Below are positions 1,599 to 15,272 of a DNA stretch of 38,789 nucleotides, piece by piece; within the stretch, counting starts at the first letter, position 1, and every line of letters begins with the position of its first letter. A program made the translations under genes and the position numbers. The notes under the pieces were generated by a model, which saw only the letters and a list, made by a program, of their open reading frames with translations, was not told the DNA's origin and ran no database searches. The DNA is from a virus. The stretch lies in IMG/VR virus record IMGVR_UViG_3300020583_000023, positions 1 through 38,789 of that record; one strand, written 5' to 3'.

Positions 1599-1915
1599 CA
1601 GGCGCTCACCATCGCCGCAAGCTCGGCCCGCTGACGGCCAGACAGGCCGCCGACCGTCTTGCTCGGGGAGATCTTGCAACGCCCGAGAGTCTTGTTCGCC
1701 TTCACGCGCCCATACTTCGGGGCTGCCAACAGAACGTCGAACACCTTCGCGGTCTCGAGATACGCCGGCGGATCCAGCAACAGGTCGTGCACTCGAACGC
1801 GCCTGGCTCGCAAATCCCGCTTCAACTGTGCGCGAGCCGCGCGAACCTCGTTCGCACGCTCGAGCGCCTCACGACGCTGCATAACCGAACGGTCAGGGGC
1901 CACGGTCACCATCAC
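1598..1915 (-). CDS. mihF: Actinobacterial integration host factor (mIHF/sIHF) homologue
   Basis: This 105-residue protein matches the actinobacterial mIHF plan. It has a basic N-terminal helix (REALERANEVRAARAQLKRDL), a short middle helix, then a C-terminal DNA-binding part VFDVLLAAPKYGRVKANKTL followed by a GGLSGRQRAEL motif. These align by eye with the LLESLPGVGKVRA and VRGLG segments of Streptomyces sIHF. Such proteins bend and compact DNA and help site-specific recombination and replication. The usual G-V-G turn is replaced by K-Y-G. The GTG start at 1915 overlaps the stop of the helicase-loader gene (GTGA 1912-1915). Its position after the loader suggests a role in replication or genome architecture. 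Confidence 0.85.
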   Translation of the reverse strand: MMVTVAPDRSVMQRREALERANEVRAARAQLKRDLRARRVRVHDLLLDPPAYLETAKVFDVLLAAPKYGRVKANKTLGRCKISPSKTVGGLSGRQRAELAAMVSA

Positions 1916-2784
1916 TTCACCTCCGGAAGTTGTTCCTGCCGCCTATCGCGGCCCCGTAACTGCACTGGCAACACCATTCGCCGGACCAGCAGCCGATGGC
2001 TCGAGCGCTCGTCCAAAATCTCGTCCCACGCCTTCGGCGGATAGTTCGTCGTCAGCAAGATCGGCAGCTCCGCCAAGTACCGGGCGTCGATCAGGTCCGC
2101 GAGCTGCTCAAGCCGCCAGTCCGTAATCCGCTCCGCCCCCAGGTCATCGAGCGCGAGCACGTCGATCGAAAGGGCGCGCTCCCACGTATCGGTGCGCTGC
2201 ACCTCATCGTCGAACCGCTGGAGCTCCCGTAGCAGCGTGCTGACCGACCGGAACATCACGCCCACCTCGCGCTCGCGAATCAGTCGCACGCACAGCGCGG
2301 CGAGTAGATGTGTCTTGCCGACGCCCGGGTCGCCCCAGACGGCGAGCGCCGGGATCCCCGGCGAGCCCTCCTCGCCCTTCTGCTGCTCGGCCTCGAAATC
2401 GCGGAGCCACGATCGCAACAGCATCAGCGCATTCCGATTCTCGGTGTCCTCCTCGAACATCAGGCCAATGAACCGCTCGGGCACCCCAGATCGCGCGAGG
2501 CGTTCCGCGGCGCGAACCCTCTTATCCTGCGGCGGGATCCCGGTCTCGAACCCGCAGGCGTCGCACTCGACGATCCACACCGGACCGGACCGATCGAGCA
2601 GTCGCCACCGGCCGACGCACCCGTCCTCCTTGCATTTGCAGATCGCAGGACCGGGTTCATCCGGAGCGTTCGCCGGCGCCTCGCGATCGATTCCCCACTG
2701 GCGCAGCTTCCTGGCCGAATCGAACGGCTTCGGCCGCTTGACCGACGACTCCGGGAGCTCAGTGCGCTCGTCGAGCGTGCTCAC
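1912..2784 (-). CDS. DnaC/IstB-like helicase loader (AAA+ ATPase)
   Basis: This 290-residue protein has a cysteine cluster at residues 49-77 (C49, C51, C56, C74, C77), probably a zinc ribbon, and then an AAA+ core. Walker A is GDPGVGKT at 151-158, Walker B is VLALDDLG at about 209-216, and TTNYPP is a sensor-1-like motif. This is the layout of phage and bacterial DnaC/DnaI helicase loaders, which place the replicative helicase on single-stranded DNA at the origin. The gene follows the replication initiator with a GTGA overlap (2781-2784) and overlaps mIHF downstream in the same way. No helicase gene is visible, so the host DnaB is probably recruited. Confidence 0.9.
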   Translation of the reverse strand: MSTLDERTELPESSVKRPKPFDSARKLRQWGIDREAPANAPDEPGPAICKCKEDGCVGRWRLLDRSGPVWIVECDACGFETGIPPQDKRVRAAERLARSGVPERFIGLMFEEDTENRNALMLLRSWLRDFEAEQQKGEEGSPGIPALAVWGDPGVGKTHLLAALCVRLIREREVGVMFRSVSTLLRELQRFDDEVQRTDTWERALSIDVLALDDLGAERITDWRLEQLADLIDARYLAELPILLTTNYPPKAWDEILDERSSHRLLVRRMVLPVQLRGRDRRQEQLPEVK

Positions 2785-5949: not shown

Positions 5950-6356
5950 GCCGCCCTCCTCAGCCCCGACCCGTCCGTCCGGCCCGCTTCCTTCAGCGCC
6001 GACAGAATCGACTGCTTTGCGTTCACCACAGCCTTCAGCGACGAGATCCGCTTCTCCATCCTGCGCCGCGACGCCAACAGCGCCGAGTACCGGCCCAACA
6101 GGTTCGCGTCCATCGCCCGATGCGCCAGCCGGGTCCGCAACGCCTCCGGCGGGAACTTCTCGCCGTCCTCCGTGTGGCGGGTCCACAGGCCCTCCTCGTG
6201 GGCAGCCATGAATTCTTCGACCTCCATCTCGACGGGGGTCAACTTGCGCTCAAGCTCGGCGAGCGCGCCGGACAGCTGATTCAGCTCCTCGGTGGCCTGG
6301 TCAAGCTCGGCCATGATCGTCACCGGATCGGTAGGGTCGCGATGAACGGTCGTCAC
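5946..6356 (-). CDS. Coiled-coil protein of the recombination cluster
   Basis: This 136-residue protein starts at GTG 6356, which overlaps the nuclease stop (GTGA 6353-6356). A longer in-frame start at 6458 would overlap the nuclease gene by 106 bases and adds low-quality sequence. Residues about 18-50 (LDQATEELNQLSGALAELER) and 95-125 (RRRMEKRISSLKAVVNAKQ) are predicted helical, with coiled-coil character, and are separated by a WTRHTEDGEKFPPEALRTRL segment. It sits between a recombination nuclease and DNA-binding proteins. I recall such short helical proteins near phage single-strand annealing genes, without known function. Confidence 0.7.
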   Translation of the reverse strand: MTTVHRDPTDPVTIMAELDQATEELNQLSGALAELERKLTPVEMEVEEFMAAHEEGLWTRHTEDGEKFPPEALRTRLAHRAMDANLLGRYSALLASRRRMEKRISSLKAVVNAKQSILSALKEAGRTDGSGLRRAA

Positions 6357-7165
6357 GCCGCGGCCCTCCGCTCCCGCGCCGTGCGCGCGCTCCGCAACCT
6401 CGACATCGACCGGTGGGTCGCCAGCACGTTCAGCCAGTCGCCAGCCTGCGCCTCGCACTCCACCTGCTCAAAGCTGCCGTCCTCGCCGACCGCGACGATG
6501 ATCGCCCCATCCGGCTCCGGGCTACCGCACTCCACGTCAGCCAACCGGTACGCGGCCGCCTGCAAGTGCGCCTCATCGAACACCCGGCCCTTCGGGTTCG
6601 TTTTCAAGTCGACGATCAGATCGCGGCCGTCGATCTCCGCACGCATGTCCAGCCGGCCCGCATACGTGTGCGTGACCGAGCCGACAAACCGTTCCACCGC
6701 GCTCGGCTTCGGACGCGCCTTCAGCAGCCACGCGCACAAGCCCTGCACATAGCCGCGAACCTCGCCCGGGAAGTCTCCGAGGTCGGGGACGGTCTGCTCG
6801 CGCCCCCACAGCTCCAGGACCGCGTGAACCGCCGTGCCGCGATCGGCGCCGGCGTCGCGCCTGGCTTCCATCCCGAGCCCGTTGATCCGTACGACGCTGA
6901 TCGCTTGCGACGGATCGACGTTCACCAGCTCGCCCTGTGCTGCGAGTCTGGCCGCGCCCTCGGCGCCGCATGCTTCCGCCCACGCGAGCAGCGCCGGCTT
7001 GTCGAGCACTTTAAGCGCCGAAGTGACGCTGATCGCCGAAACGCGCTCACCACCGGTGTGAAGCCAATAGCGATGCGACGCGTCCCGATACTCGACGGTG
7101 ACGCTGCCGTACGCCTGAAACTCGGAGCCGTCACGCTCCGTGTACGGCCGCTCGAACACGGTCAT
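6353..7165 (-). CDS. RecB/Cas4-like PD-(D/E)XK exonuclease
   Basis: This 270-residue protein has the RecB-nuclease signature: a histidine at 114 (RGTAVHAVLELW), YAGRLDMRAEIDG with D173, IVDLKT with D186 and K188, and the Q-x-x-x-Y helix HLQAAAYRLAD (Q202, Y206). It belongs to the PD-(D/E)XK group that includes the phage exonucleases paired with annealing proteins. It probably resects double-stranded ends to make single strands. It directly follows the Rad52-like gene (ATGA overlap 7162-7165), which is the usual pairing of a phage recombination module. Length is typical for the group. Confidence 0.85.
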   Translation of the reverse strand: MTVFERPYTERDGSEFQAYGSVTVEYRDASHRYWLHTGGERVSAISVTSALKVLDKPALLAWAEACGAEGAARLAAQGELVNVDPSQAISVVRINGLGMEARRDAGADRGTAVHAVLELWGREQTVPDLGDFPGEVRGYVQGLCAWLLKARPKPSAVERFVGSVTHTYAGRLDMRAEIDGRDLIVDLKTNPKGRVFDEAHLQAAAYRLADVECGSPEPDGAIIVAVGEDGSFEQVECEAQAGDWLNVLATHRSMSRLRSARTARERRAAA

Positions 7166-7983
7166 GACGTGCGCTCCATCCCAACCAGTGCTTCCGCGAG
7201 CGCCGGCGCAACAGCCGCCGGCACGCCGGCGAACGAGATCGCGACACCCTCCGGGGCGGAAAGGCCAACCGATCCGAGCGCCAAACGCACCTGACCGACC
7301 TTCAGACCCTTGGCCGCAGCCTTCAGCTCTTCGATATCGGACTCGGTTACCAGCGCCGGCGCGTCAGGCTCGGGGGGCGCGTCGATCTCGGCGTCCCCCT
7401 GGGCGCCCTCGACGTCACCGTGATCGAGGGACTCTCCGAACGCGCTGGTGCCGTGCGACTCCAGCCACGTCTTGTAGTTCGACTGCGCCATTCGCTCGCC
7501 CTCAGCGGTCAGCCTCACCTTGTCGCGGCCGCCGAGCTCGAGCCCACTGCCGATCTTCAACGTGAGCTTCGGGGTCGCGTACAGCGACACGCCGATCCCG
7601 AACTTCACCGCGGCACGCTTCAACGCATCCGACACGAGTCCCTTGCCGGCGCCTTCGCCAACGTCCGAGCGGGTGATGTCGTCGATCGTGAGGTCACACC
7701 ACATCTGGCCGCCGCCGACCGGGCGGTACGCGTCATGCCAGAGGTGCGGGACGATCAGGTTGAGCCGCTCGACGACCAGGCGCGCATCGATGTAGGCGAC
7801 GATCAGGCCTCCGGTCGGGTTCTCTTTCGGCCAGGTGGCCTGCACCTTGAACTTCACGGCCGCCGGCGTGAACGGGCGGCGCAGATGCTTCGCGGCGTCG
7901 CGGAAGCTGTCGACCGGGAAGCTGACAGTGGGTTCGGCGGCCTCGGAGCCGTTGGGCGTCGTCCTGGCGGTCGTCGTCGCCAT
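7162..7983 (-). CDS. Rad52/Rad22-family single-strand annealing protein
   Basis: This 273-residue protein has residues about 30-165 matching the Rad52/22 fold used by phage annealing proteins. Segments include LRRPFTPAAVKFKVQATW, AYIDARLVVERLNLIVP, and the characteristic VSDALKRAAVKFGIGVSLY followed by strands. The C-terminal third is acidic and variable, with a helical end that may bind a partner. Such proteins anneal complementary single strands at processed ends. Together with the adjacent nuclease it forms a two-component homologous recombination system. ATG 7983 shares a base with the upstream stop (TGATG). Confidence 0.85.
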   Translation of the reverse strand: MATTTARTTPNGSEAAEPTVSFPVDSFRDAAKHLRRPFTPAAVKFKVQATWPKENPTGGLIVAYIDARLVVERLNLIVPHLWHDAYRPVGGGQMWCDLTIDDITRSDVGEGAGKGLVSDALKRAAVKFGIGVSLYATPKLTLKIGSGLELGGRDKVRLTAEGERMAQSNYKTWLESHGTSAFGESLDHGDVEGAQGDAEIDAPPEPDAPALVTESDIEELKAAAKGLKVGQVRLALGSVGLSAPEGVAISFAGVPAAVAPALAEALVGMERTS

Positions 7984-8963: not shown

Positions 8964-9196
8964 GTGGTCAGCCCCAGCCGGCGGAGAACGCGCTCGCGTT
9001 GCGCGCGGTGGAACTCGTCGATCTGCTCGACCGTGAGCCCGCACGCCAACTCGCACGGGCTCATTGATTTCAGAGCGGCCATCTGACGCGCGGAGTTCGT
9101 AGTCCCTGGCTTGGCGTTGTTGATCGAACGCTTCTGCCAGGGGCGCGGCTTGCCGAGTACGAACTGGGTCGCCGGCGGACGAGCGTGGCGAGTCAT
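8960..9196 (-). CDS. Hypothetical protein (78 aa)
   Basis: This 78-residue basic protein begins MTRHARPPATQFVLGKPRP. A Met-rich, Ser-rich middle (QMAALKSMSPCELACGL) leads to a helical C-terminus (TVEQIDEFHRAQRERVLRRL). ATG 9196 overlaps the stop of the HTH regulator (ATGA 9193-9196); an upstream ATG at 9220 would overlap that gene by 28 bases and is less likely. It is the second gene of the early operon, so it may be made early. No function can be assigned. Confidence 0.65.
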   Translation of the reverse strand: MTRHARPPATQFVLGKPRPWQKRSINNAKPGTTNSARQMAALKSMSPCELACGLTVEQIDEFHRAQRERVLRRLGLTT

Positions 9197-9426
9197 GCCG
9201 CGCGCTCCGTGTATAGCCACGCCATGTCACGACCAAGCTCGCGAGTCAGCGCAATCAGGTTCTCCTCGCTCGGCCGATGCCAGCCGCGCTCCCACTTGCT
9301 GACCATCATCGGGTCGACGTCGACCCGGTCGGCGAGCTGGCGTTGCGTCAGCCCCGCTGCGAGCCTCGCACGCTTGATGTTCGCGCCGAGAGTAGTTGCC
9401 GGTCTGCTAGTTGCTTGACTAGACAT
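9193..9426 (-). CDS. Cro/C1-type HTH regulator, first gene of the early operon
   Basis: This 77-residue protein is almost entirely one Cro/C1 (XRE) DNA-binding domain. The HTH covers residues 26-48 (LTQRQLADRVDVDPMMVSKW), followed by ERGWHRPSEENL and a short DMAWLYTERAA end. No dimerisation or cleavage domain is present, so it resembles a Cro-type protein. It is paralogous to the rightward HTH gene: both share SKWERG-x-HRP and a final L/M-A-W motif. Its ATG lies just downstream of a leftward promoter, giving a leaderless or nearly leaderless transcript. Its first codons lie in an operator-like inverted repeat arm (9414-9425). Confidence 0.85.
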   Translation of the reverse strand: MSSQATSRPATTLGANIKRARLAAGLTQRQLADRVDVDPMMVSKWERGWHRPSEENLIALTRELGRDMAWLYTERAA

Positions 9427-9465
9427 CTGGCAACCACCATACTAGGAGTGTGCTGTCTAGTCAAG
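9414..9465. promoter_or_regulatory. Divergent overlapping promoters with 12-bp inverted-repeat operator
   Basis: CTTGACTAGACA at 9414-9425 is perfectly repeated in inverted form as TGTCTAGTCAAG at 9454-9465. The rightward promoter reads TTGACT (9415-9420), 17 bases, CATACT (9438-9443). The leftward promoter reads TTGACT (9464-9459), 17 bases, TATGGT (9441-9436). The two -10 elements overlap and each -35 lies inside one repeat arm, so the two directions should be mutually exclusive. CTAG, usually rare, occurs five times between 9407 and 9475 (starts 9407, 9419, 9442, 9457, 9472), suggesting several operator sites. The promoter calls are by eye. Confidence 0.75.
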
Positions 9466-10007
9466 TGGCTTCTAGGAACTTGTCCACGACAAACTCAATC
9501 GCCCGCCGTAGGTTTGAACTCATGGTCGCCGAGCACACGGCGCTTGTGGGGCGACGGATCGCTGAGGCCCGCGAAGAAGCGGGCCTCACTCAAGCCGAGC
9601 TAGCAGCAAAAATCCCAGGCAAGGCGGGCAGCGACCAGGTGTCCAAGTGGGAGCGCGGCATCCACCGCCCCGGCGACGACACGCTCGCTCAGATCGGCAA
9701 AGCGACCGGCAAGCCTCTAGCCTGGTTCCACACTTCCCCGGCCGACAAATCCAATGGAACGCCGGCGCTCATGGAAACGCTCGAACCCGATGACGATCAG
9801 TCTCAGCTCGATCGGATTGAAGCGATGCTCGCCGAGCTGCTCCGACGCGTCCCGCCGACCACCGAGGAGCTGCTCGACGCGGCGAAGACTGGGGCTAGCA
9901 CAGCAGAGCGGCTATCGGGACGGCCAGCAGGCAGTACCGAGCGGCAAGCGTCTCAAGCTCGGCGCGCAAAGGGTCGGCCTCCGGAAGCTCCGGCAGCCGG
10001 CGAGTGA
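9450..10007 (+). CDS. XRE-family HTH regulator (rightward arm of the switch)
   Basis: This protein has 185 residues from GTG 9450, or 161 from ATG 9522. The HTH region (LTQAELAAKIPG ... SDQVSKWERGIHRPGDDTL) lies at about 46-84 from the first start. A helical segment follows (QLDRIEAMLAELLRRV), then a Pro/Ala/Arg-rich tail. The protein is longer than its leftward paralogue and has a possible oligomerisation helix, so it is the better candidate for a repressor. The rightward promoter would place the transcript start at about 9450, making the GTG leaderless; ATG 9522 has only a weak TAGG upstream. The last 113 bases overlap a possible leftward gene. Confidence 0.8.
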   Translation: MLSSQVASRNLSTTNSIARRRFELMVAEHTALVGRRIAEAREEAGLTQAELAAKIPGKAGSDQVSKWERGIHRPGDDTLAQIGKATGKPLAWFHTSPADKSNGTPALMETLEPDDDQSQLDRIEAMLAELLRRVPPTTEELLDAAKTGASTAERLSGRPAGSTERQASQARRAKGRPPEAPAAGE

Positions 10008-10209: not shown

Positions 10210-10602
10210 ATGAGAGACGGATCGACGGCAACACGGGTTCTTCCGGTAGTGCTCGCGGTTCTTGCCCTCGCAGGCTGCGGCACCACCCGTACCGTCACCG
10301 TCACCACGATCATCCAAGCCGCCCCAGCGCCAGCCGCCACGACGGCCGTGGCCCAGTCTCCAGGATCGTTCTCCGGTAACGGCACCAAATCGCTCGGCAC
10401 GATCACGATCGACCGACCGTCGATCATCGAGTGGCGATCCTCCGGGCCGTCCTTCGCTTTGACCAGCGGCGTCAGCGGCACGACCGCGATCGCGGTCAGC
10501 TCCACGTCGAGCTCTGGAACGTCGGCGATCGGCCCGGGGGCGTATCCGAACGCGCAGGTGATCTCGGCCGCGAATTGGACGATCCGGATCGTGGCGCAGT
10601 AG
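10210..10602 (+). CDS. Predicted surface lipoprotein
   Basis: This is a 130-residue protein. The signal peptide TRVLPVVLAVLALAGC ends in a lipobox LAGC with the lipidated cysteine at residue 23, so the mature protein should be anchored outside the cytoplasmic membrane. A Thr/Ala/Pro-rich linker (about 24-50) precedes a small beta-rich domain (GNGTKSLGTITIDRPSIIEW ... PNAQVISAANWTIRI). I recall this domain in secreted proteins of actinobacteria. An AGGA lies 8 bases before ATG 10210. It is transcribed with the rightward regulator and stands apart from virion genes, which is where phages often keep lysogenic-conversion or superinfection-exclusion genes; that role is inference. Confidence 0.8.
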   Translation: MRDGSTATRVLPVVLAVLALAGCGTTRTVTVTTIIQAAPAPAATTAVAQSPGSFSGNGTKSLGTITIDRPSIIEWRSSGPSFALTSGVSGTTAIAVSSTSSSGTSAIGPGAYPNAQVISAANWTIRIVAQ

Positions 10603-10999: not shown

Positions 11000-11734
11000 C
11001 TAGTTGAGCGGGCTGGCGACCCAGCCCTTGAGAGTGCGCGGCACCGTGCAATCGGCGCCCTGGTCGAACAGCGCGGCGAGCGTGTTGAAGCTCATGCAGA
11101 AGCAGCCGCCCGGAATGTCGCCGTGCGCCACCCCGTACTCGGTGCCCCACGAGTTCACGAACCAGATCCGCTCGTTCTGAGCGTCAAGGCCGATTGCGCA
11201 CACCTCGTGCCCGCCGCGAACCGTTGCGCCCGGAGCGATCTCGATGTACCCGTTCGCGTCCGGCGAGTCGAACGACGTGAACCAGTTCATCCCGAAAATC
11301 GCCGGCCGCGGCACGACCGCCAACAACGCGCTATGGATGTCGGCGGCGTGCTGGTACTCGAAGATCCAGCCGCGATTCTTCGCGGCCTGGCAGACCTCGG
11401 TGCCCGAGCCGCCCTGGTCGTTCGGCGGATATGGCCCGAACCCCTCCAGCACCTCCTCGTCGGAGTAGACGGCGTAGCAGTCGGGCTCCCCGAGCGTCGG
11501 CTGCCCGGCAGCCCAGTGCGGGATCGCGTTCAGCGCTCCGCACACCGCGTGCGCCGTGCAGCTCGAGGTCTCCTGCTGATTGAGCGGCAGCCCCGCGGAA
11601 CGGTGAGTGACGCTGACCAGCTGCGCGGCGGTCTCGGCCGGGTACGCGTCGGAGCGGTCGTCGATGTGGATGTGCCGTCCCAGGCGTTTCCCGGGGATCA
11701 CGACCTCCGGGATGCGAATGCGGTGGATGCTCAA
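11000..11734 (-). CDS. Papain-like (C1 family) cysteine peptidase
   Basis: This 244-residue protein carries the C1 catalytic set: oxyanion Gln53 and Cys59 in QQETSSCTAHAVCGAL, His176 in RGGHEVCAIGLD, and Asn194 in FVNSWG. The six-residue Gln-Cys spacing is the papain spacing. There is no signal peptide or propeptide, so it is active as made or released by the holin. It starts at TTG 11734 after AGGAGG with five bases of spacing. It lies directly upstream of the holin gene in the lysis cluster. It may cut cell-wall-linked or host surface proteins, or peptidoglycan peptides; the substrate cannot be told from sequence. Confidence 0.85.
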   Translation of the reverse strand: MSIHRIRIPEVVIPGKRLGRHIHIDDRSDAYPAETAAQLVSVTHRSAGLPLNQQETSSCTAHAVCGALNAIPHWAAGQPTLGEPDCYAVYSDEEVLEGFGPYPPNDQGGSGTEVCQAAKNRGWIFEYQHAADIHSALLAVVPRPAIFGMNWFTSFDSPDANGYIEIAPGATVRGGHEVCAIGLDAQNERIWFVNSWGTEYGVAHGDIPGGCFCMSFNTLAALFDQGADCTVPRTLKGWVASPLN

Positions 11735-13680: not shown

Positions 13681-14721
13681 TCAGCCATTGAGGATCCGCT
13701 CGATCCGGTAGTGGCGCGGGCCCCATTTCAACTCCCCGGAACGCGCGCTGCCCCAGTGACCACCGGAGATCGTCACCAGTCGTCCGGCGAGCCACTGCAG
13801 GTTGCGGCGGTCGATCACGCACACGTGCCGACGCACGGGGTTCTTGCAGCCATGCGACCACCACGACTCGACGGTGAGGCGCTCGGAGATCTTGTGCGCG
13901 TACAGCTCGACTGGTTTCAGCGGGTAGATCGCGAACGGGCTGACCGTCGGCGCGGGGAACGCGAGCGCTTTCGAGAAGCCGCGCAGATCGATGCTCACGT
14001 CGCCGTATCCGAGCCCGGGGATTGACCGGTACGTGTATGGGGGGCTGTACCGCTGCCACGCGAGCACCACCGCCGCGAACGGCAGCGCGGCGAGCGACGG
14101 ACCGTAGTCGGCCTCCCACGCTTCCAGGCCGCCGGAGGCGCCGCCTGGCCAGGTGCCGGGCGCGGTGTAGATGATCGGCCAGACACCGAACGCTGCGTGG
14201 ATCGCGCGGGCGATCGGGACGGCGCACCCGAACGCGGACGGGACTTCCATATCCTCGACCGGTCGCAGCGCGTCACGGTCGCCCCTGAACCCCACGCTGT
14301 TGAGCACGGACACGAACGACGGTCCCTCCGAGCAGCCGCGCACGAACCAGTACCCGGCCCACGGGATATGTAGCGCCCGCAGCGAGGCGACGTTGTAAGC
14401 GAAGTCGGGGTCCTCGAAGTTCGACTCGCCTGCCTTTGCGACCGCCGCACAGATCGAGCTCGAGGCCGCCGCCCAGTCCGGATGGCCCTGATAGGAGGAG
14501 ACGTCGGGGAATAGACAGCCGGCCACTGGTTTCGTGACGCCGGATGGCTTCAGGTTCTGCAGCGCATGGTTTGGATGCGGCACGGCGCCGGACGCACAGC
14601 CCATGAACGAGCGCCCAGGCGGGCACAGTTCGGTTAGCTTCGAACGATGTGCGGTTGAGCCGCAGCCGACGATCAGCAGCGCGGCGATGAGAGCGCCCGT
14701 GAGCGCAGCGATTCGTCGCAT
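13681..14721 (-). CDS. GH25 lysozyme with lipoprotein signal (endolysin candidate)
   Basis: This is a 346-residue protein. Residues 1-20 form a signal peptide with lipobox IVGC (C20). The GH25 domain starts near residue 68: FPDVSSYQG (D73) matches the D-x-S-x-x-Q motif, EDMEV (D157, E159) matches the catalytic D-x-E, and LAWQRYS and VSIDLRGF match later strands. GH25 enzymes cut the glycan backbone of peptidoglycan. The C-terminal 80 residues (ESWWSHGCKNPVRR ...) may bind the wall. A lipid anchor on an endolysin is unusual and implies export by the host and tethering to the membrane. AGGAGG precedes ATG 14721 by nine bases. Confidence 0.85.
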   Translation of the reverse strand: MRRIAALTGALIAALLIVGCGSTAHRSKLTELCPPGRSFMGCASGAVPHPNHALQNLKPSGVTKPVAGCLFPDVSSYQGHPDWAAASSSICAAVAKAGESNFEDPDFAYNVASLRALHIPWAGYWFVRGCSEGPSFVSVLNSVGFRGDRDALRPVEDMEVPSAFGCAVPIARAIHAAFGVWPIIYTAPGTWPGGASGGLEAWEADYGPSLAALPFAAVVLAWQRYSPPYTYRSIPGLGYGDVSIDLRGFSKALAFPAPTVSPFAIYPLKPVELYAHKISERLTVESWWSHGCKNPVRRHVCVIDRRNLQWLAGRLVTISGGHWGSARSGELKWGPRHYRIERILNG

Positions 14722-14774
14722 GGTGGAAACCTCCTGGATGGTTGGGAACGGGCCGCTACGCGGCCGACAGACGG

Positions 14775-15272
14775 TCAGGCGTCCGGTTTCGGCCTGTCCG
14801 CCCGACGGCGGCCGCCTACGCGGCGTTGCAAGTCATTGACCTGCCGGGTCATCTCGTCGATCTGAAGCTCGAGCTTCGCTCGCGTCTTGAGCGCCTCATC
14901 CAACCGTTTCTGCAATCGGTCGCGCTCGCCGTTCGAGTGCTCCAGTGCGCTTTCGAGAACGGCGATCCGTTCGTTCGATTCGGCGAGCTGTGATTGCAGC
15001 TCCGCGATCGCTTGCTTCGCCGCCTCGAGCTCCGCGACGTACCGGCCGAGCGCCTGATCCAACGCTTGCACAGCCTTCTGCGCCGCAGACGCCTCCATCT
15101 CCTCGCGCTGCGCCCCGGCGACCGTCCTCGCGCGCCGCCATGAGACAGCGGCGGCGATGATCGCAATCAGCGCGGCGACCCCTTCGATCAGCGTGAGGAT
15201 GTTCAGGCTCTCGGTCGTCGGCGGTGACGACAAAGCACCGACGATCAGCCCAACGACAATCCCGAGCCTCAC
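14775..15272 (-). CDS. Membrane-anchored coiled-coil protein
   Basis: This 165-residue protein has two hydrophobic stretches (LGIVVGLIVGALSS, then ILTLIEGVAALIAIIAAAVS) up to residue 44, then a long coiled coil from about 60 to 150 (VAELEAAKQAIAELQSQLAE ... RLDEALKTRAKLELQI) with regular heptads, and a basic end. It may span membrane and cytoplasm or periplasm in the way of an i-spanin-like or scaffold protein; this is inference. It overlaps the upstream gene by ATGA (15269-15272), so the two membrane proteins are probably made together. Confidence 0.7.
   Translation of the reverse strand: MRLGIVVGLIVGALSSPPTTESLNILTLIEGVAALIAIIAAAVSWRRARTVAGAQREEMEASAAQKAVQALDQALGRYVAELEAAKQAIAELQSQLAESNERIAVLESALEHSNGERDRLQKRLDEALKTRAKLELQIDEMTRQVNDLQRRVGGRRRADRPKPDA

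Follow-up and report, generated by a model that had tools for sequence, protein, structure and literature searches.

A putative compact CI/Cro-type switch on one bidirectional promoter in a group of uncultured phages

Known divergent switches and the phage under study

Bidirectional promoters are widespread and the study of their regulation has only recently begun. The bacterial examples described by Warman and Grainger have opposed start sites 7-25 bp apart around a shared -10 sequence, and the polymerase binds them one way at a time (PMC12825309, PMC10268837). The E. coli promoters tested show no competition at basal strength; strong activation of one direction is required for it (PMC12825309). 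In the plasmid pLS20, the overlapping divergent promoters Pr and Pc act as a two-way switch, one of them driving the regulator RcoLS20 (PMC4207663). In mycobacteriophage BPs, the divergent promoters Prep and PR are placed between the repressor gp33 and the Cro-like gp34, and a half-operator overlaps the -35 box of PR (PMC4557955). The cI and cro mRNAs of phage PY54 are both leaderless by RACE (PMC4488713). A literature search, which covered few subscription papers, returned no phage switch built on a shared -10.

The DNA analyzed here (the window, meaning the whole stretch) is the virus record G000 from IMG/VR, 38,789 bases long. Its minus strand encodes the portal, major head, tape-measure and endolysin proteins. 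The same strand contains a leftward early region, in which a replication-initiation-like protein is encoded together with the recombination and replication genes listed below. The genes relevant to the locus are:

1912-2784, minus strand: DnaC-like helicase loader (phrog_50), in the leftward early region
6353-7165, minus strand: exonuclease (phrog_298), in the leftward early operon
7162-7983, minus strand: Erf-like single-strand annealing protein (phrog_1097), in the leftward early operon
9193-9426, minus strand: P1, a Cro-like HTH_3 regulator of 77 aa that heads the leftward early operon
9450-10007, plus strand: P2, a 185-aa HTH_3 regulator and candidate immunity repressor, with start GTG 9450 or TTG 9480
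10210-10602, plus strand: lipoprotein gene with a lipobox, downstream of P2

The phage is very probably temperate, because a near-identical contig (G001; 53.8 kb, 99.98% identical to the window over 38.6 kb) carries a phage integrase (1173-2249); the window itself has none. G001 further encodes the large terminase and another tyrosine recombinase (14401-15153), which is XerC-like and lies between collagen-like/tail-type genes and the portal gene. An integrase or a serine recombinase is present in other members of the group described below. Among the named phages of INPHARED, the window's phage has no DNA match and its HTH matches are weak only. Near the lysis genes, a minus-strand ORF (11000-11734) contains papain-like motifs by eye (SSCTAHA, GGHEVCAIG and NSWGTEYG); a Pfam search at E 0.01 gave no match for it.

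The 50-bp element and its two regulators

The start codons of P1 and P2 are separated by 23 bp. The element that spans this gap measures 50 bp from end to end and has the following parts:

9414-9425, plus strand: left arm CTTGACTAGACA, holding the rightward -35 box and abutting or overlapping the P1 start codon
9454-9465, plus strand: right arm TGTCTAGTCAAG, holding the leftward -35 box and encoding the SSQ of P2
9415-9443, plus strand: predicted rightward promoter (P2), with TTGACT 9415-9420, 17 nt and CATACT 9438-9443; predicted +1 at 9450
9436-9464, minus strand: predicted leftward promoter (P1 and the early operon), with TTGACT 9464-9459, 17 nt and TATGGT 9441-9436; predicted +1 at about 9429

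The arms are 12 bp long and 100% complementary, with 28 nt between them, and each -35 box sits within the first codons of the opposing gene. The two -10 boxes overlap by 4 bp (9438-9441). A promoter scan returns both promoters, which are of the sigma-70 type, where 0.2 promoter-like sites are expected in 1.4 kb. With the usual 6-nt gap between the -10 box and +1, the predicted rightward start is the G of the P2 GTG, and the predicted leftward start lies three bases ahead of the P1 ATG (9426). The opposed starts predicted in this way from the sequence are 21 bp apart and share the -10 sequence. A preliminary description of this DNA had reported the inverted repeat, the -35 box in each arm and the overlapping -10 boxes, and all the coordinates proved exact on recheck. 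It had also noted CTAG five times in about 70 bases: the tetranucleotide is indeed found at 9407, 9419, 9442, 9457 and 9472, that is, five times in 69 bp versus 26 in 38.8 kb. Of these copies, which together span 9407-9475, two are in the arms, one is at the -10 region and two are just outside the arms, the latter not being common to all relatives.

The repeat is the sole perfect inverted repeat of at least 12 bp with a spacer of at most 60 in the window. In 200 dinucleotide shuffles, however, 0.7 short-loop repeats of 12 bp are expected per window, and the inverted repeat by itself therefore proves nothing. The same shuffles give 0.005 mirrored promoter pairs with overlapping -10 boxes per window.

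Both P1 and P2 pass the Pfam cut-off for HTH_3. P1 has orthologues in eight other phages or prophage-like contigs. Its transcript leads toward the recombination/replication genes, as Erf, the exonuclease and the helicase loader are on the P1 strand, and in the relative L119 the P1 side carries Sak4. The P1 start is at one fixed place in nine of nine members (ATG in seven, GTG in two), and in the six members with identical geometry the ATG is 9 nt past its -10 box. There are good grounds to regard the P1 mRNA as near-leaderless, because the promoter, if correctly predicted, leaves no space for a ribosome-binding site. At the other end of the gene (9193-9196), the P1 stop codon overlaps the next leftward ATG (ATGA), suggesting translational coupling.

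The start of P2 is ambiguous between GTG 9450 and TTG 9480. In a tally read from the sequences and translations of the members, a canonical start stands at the predicted +1 in four of nine (the window, L030, L033 and L119); the codon in this slot is TTC in L032 and ATC in L039. Ten codons past the slot, an ATG, GTG or TTG is found in register in six of nine (TTG 9480 in the window). The codons before this downstream start show identities of 0.44/0.46/0.44 at the three codon positions, hence no codon-position signal. Leaderless translation of P2 as a fixed rule was rejected in view of the TTC and ATC codons and of the aligned downstream starts. The earlier suggestion that both transcripts may be leaderless or nearly so is well supported for P1 and less certain for P2.

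A Pfam search with P2 gave HTH families only, and no peptidase, S24 or LexA-type self-cleavage domain. The structure model of P2 consists of helices followed by a low-confidence tail, and a self-cleavage domain is absent from it. A structure search matched the HTH domain alone, with nothing at E <= 0.001, and the closest solved structures include the P22 C2 and 434 repressor domains. Since P2 lacks a self-cleavage domain in both Pfam and the model, induction must go by another route.

A lipoprotein gene with a lipobox follows P2 on the P2 strand in four of nine members: the window, L030 (2620-3177), L039 (on L232, about 835 nt from the arm) and L119 (10825-11460). These lipoproteins look unrelated in sequence beyond the signal, and the L119 copy has a DUF4352. 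Such a gene is what a lysogenic transcript would be expected to carry (compare the superinfection exclusion by Ltp, PMC3952083), and these lipoproteins could possibly serve in superinfection exclusion.

Conservation and origin of the gene pair

A search for the arrangement in related phages, suggested in the preliminary description, reveals the 50-bp element in six members and one more intact copy, with 33 bp between the arms, in L210. The protein search with P2 leads to L017/L030 at 44% identity, where the orthologous P1 is 49% identical and the 23-bp gap and the arms are the same. The best relative among genome contigs, L119, also came from the protein search and contains divergent P1 and P2 genes, the 23-bp gap and exact arms; L119 and L017 were found by protein search alone. 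Among the genomes scanned from the phylum of L119, the pattern occurs in the MAG of L119 only, and the assignment of that contig may be contamination.

An exact DNA scan for TTGACTAG-N34-CTAGTCAA gives 13 contigs, corresponding to five HTH pairs (the window's phage and four others) and eight cases of unrelated coding sequence. The remaining spacings between N28 and N40 give 32 further contigs with a single HTH pair (L210, N33, genuine), versus 5 of 13 at N34. Because a DNA pattern selects for itself, the searches with P1 and P2 alignments were run without the arms; their best viral relatives are the same five contigs as those of the DNA pattern. The five best relatives, four viral contigs and one MAG contig, all keep the 50-bp element, the start spacing and both promoters.

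Six members agree base for base in their geometry, and the seventh (L210) comes close. In the six, the rightward promoter reads TTGACT-17-CATACT, TATAGT or CATAGT, and the leftward one TTGACT-17-TATGGT, TATGTT, TATGCT or TATAGT. The seven HTH pairs with the element have diverged widely, with 39-58% identity for the closest. This conservation in other phages, and not the statistics of the window, is the ground on which the repeat is judged real. Two more distantly related pairs, L155 and L151, retain the P1 (Cro-side) promoter and the right arm, whereas their -35 box for P2 has decayed. A related divergent HTH pair in L152/L046 (7869-8010) has a different palindrome, GTACTAGGC..GCCTAGTAC; by eye, the -10 box of one of its promoters overlaps the -35 box of the other. 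The mirror design may have been rebuilt there with another sequence.

The two regulators had been proposed to result from the duplication of one gene and its operator. In BLASTP, P1 and P2 align over 66 aa at 41% identity, and the aligned part contains SKWERG-W/I-HRP and MAW/LAW. The common motif SKWERG-x-HRP is thus confirmed, and the A-W motif is present in both proteins, but the P2 copy, at residues 91-92 of 185, is not terminal as had been described. A tree of 60 HTH domains (67 columns), including nine P1s and nine P2s, has a branch (100/99) that divides all P1s from all P2s; a tree that holds P1 and P2 together is 26 lnL worse and is not rejected (AU p 0.13). Because the P1s and the P2s fall on separate sides, any duplication predates the radiation of the whole group. 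The duplication of gene and operator is consequently not borne out, and a recent duplication of the regulator within the phage was rejected on the same separation. In our reading, the residues aligned with the base-contacting positions 28-29 of the 434 repressor differ between P1 and P2, and for this reason the binding of both proteins to the same core is not assured.

Function of the locus and comparison with known systems

The locus is quite probably where a temperate siphophage decides between lysis and lysogeny, an immunity switch of the CI/Cro type reduced to one bidirectional promoter. The two divergent HTH_3 genes, the mirrored promoters and the position of P1 at the head of the recombination/replication operon all lead to this reading. 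P2 would act as prophage repressor, with P1 taking the lytic, Cro-like role. The RNA polymerase would engage one orientation at a time, whereby lytic (P1) initiation excludes lysogenic (P2) initiation, and the reverse. Such a two-way switch at the immunity locus, with overlapping and sterically exclusive promoters, had been put forward in the preliminary description; the geometry conserved in six members, and nearly in a seventh, supports it. Competition between the directions is plausible here, if unproven, since both have near-consensus -35 boxes. P1 and/or P2 would bind the arms at the core TTGACTAG. Each arm spans the -35 box of one promoter together with the first transcribed bases of the other, so that a protein bound to either of them can block both directions. 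The asymmetry must come from the arm flanks, the affinity or the protein level, differences in which would bias the direction. P1 would be translated from a near-leaderless mRNA, and so would P2 if it begins at GTG 9450; a P2 that begins at TTG 9480 would have a 30-nt leader. Overall, the locus is best read as a conserved, unusually compact CI/Cro-type switch on one bidirectional promoter, in which mutual exclusion, binding to the arms, the parts assigned to P1 and P2 and a leaderless P2 mRNA are the inferred steps. More tentatively, the lysis-lysogeny choice could be mainly the direction in which the polymerase lands, with identical arms that serve both as -35 boxes and as targets of the regulators, in a minimal switch without separate operators. 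The size of the system (50 bp and two short genes) permits a direct test of whether the polymerase orientation alone makes a bistable choice, and the element defines a recognizable immunity cassette in uncultured phages.

A palindrome that arose by chance between two ordinary divergent promoters is highly improbable. The 0.7 repeats expected per window and the eight of 13 contigs in which the exact pattern is unrelated coding sequence speak for it, and the window statistics are insufficient to exclude it; the conservation rules it out, as the same element is at the same place in seven widely diverged HTH pairs. Also improbable, to a lesser degree, is an accessory role for the pair, in which the two regulators at the head of the early operon control, for instance, the lipoprotein or a defense gene and do not form the immunity switch. 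The absence of a protease domain in P2 and the lipoprotein gene after it would suit such a pair. On the other hand, P1 directly heads the recombination/replication genes with P2 adjoining it and facing the opposite way, the context is temperate with an integrase, and PHROGs labels both proteins as transcriptional repressors/regulators.

The arms may serve the promoters only or a regulator as well. Their conservation is partly explained by promoter function, because TTGACT is also needed as a -35 box by sigma. It is rather unlikely that the arms are merely two -35 boxes with constrained N-terminal codons, the regulators binding elsewhere or at the centre and the repeat being a by-product of promoters that face apart. 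This would fit with TTGACT serving as -35 box both ways, and with a search of the window for further TTGACTAG sites, which gave none above chance. However, the AG past the hexamer is invariant, all 12 arms in the six members with identical geometry containing TTGACTAG, and the spacing is constant at 34 (33 in one member). In addition, Ser-Gln in the arms is always encoded by AGT-CAA, although in this phage AGT accounts for 3.9% of Ser and CAA for 13.6% of Gln codons, so that the combination is expected in about 0.5% of Ser-Gln pairs. The invariant AG and this codon choice argue moderately for a regulator that also binds the arms. With TGACTAGNCA in 6 of 6, the left arm forms a near-dyad about CTAG that is inseparable from coding because its CA belongs to the P1 start codon. 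Further operators, sought in the window as TTGACTAG and TGNCTAGNCA with one mismatch, were discarded as not above chance.

The lambdoid CI/Cro loci (lambda, P22 and 434; the telomere phages N15, PY54 and phiKO2) have in common with the present locus a repressor gene and a Cro-like gene, both of the HTH class, that diverge from intervening regulatory DNA, and a Cro-like gene that heads the early operon, as P1 does here. If both mRNAs were leaderless, PY54 would offer a precedent, since its cI and cro mRNAs are. On the other hand, separated PRM and PR promoters and three operators are found there, whereas one 50-bp element with overlapping -10 boxes, and start codons only 23 bp apart, are found here. 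The three tandem operators of the lambda/P22 subtype are replaced by two inverted arms only, in 50 bp total, and the S24 self-cleavage domain in the repressor C-terminus of that subtype was not found in P2.

BPs is similar in having two divergent promoters between the repressor and the Cro-like gene, for which the available text of the source does not describe a shared -10. In BPs, the integrase is beside the repressor and attP inside it, whereas here the integrase is far from P2: in G001 the recombinases are at 1173-2249 and 14401-15153 and P2 is at 43941-44495, an arrangement other than the integration-dependent immunity of the BPs type. The overlapping divergent promoters of pLS20 also form a two-way switch, but on a conjugative plasmid, with one regulator, DNA looping to a second operator and the main promoter far upstream of the first gene. 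The Warman/Grainger promoters have opposed starts around a shared -10; the starts predicted here would be 21 bp apart. Unlike them, the present element has near-consensus -35 boxes both ways that form an inverted repeat, and both of its gene products are HTH regulators. The case is natural and conserved, and the shared promoter is apparently the decision point between two antagonistic regulators.
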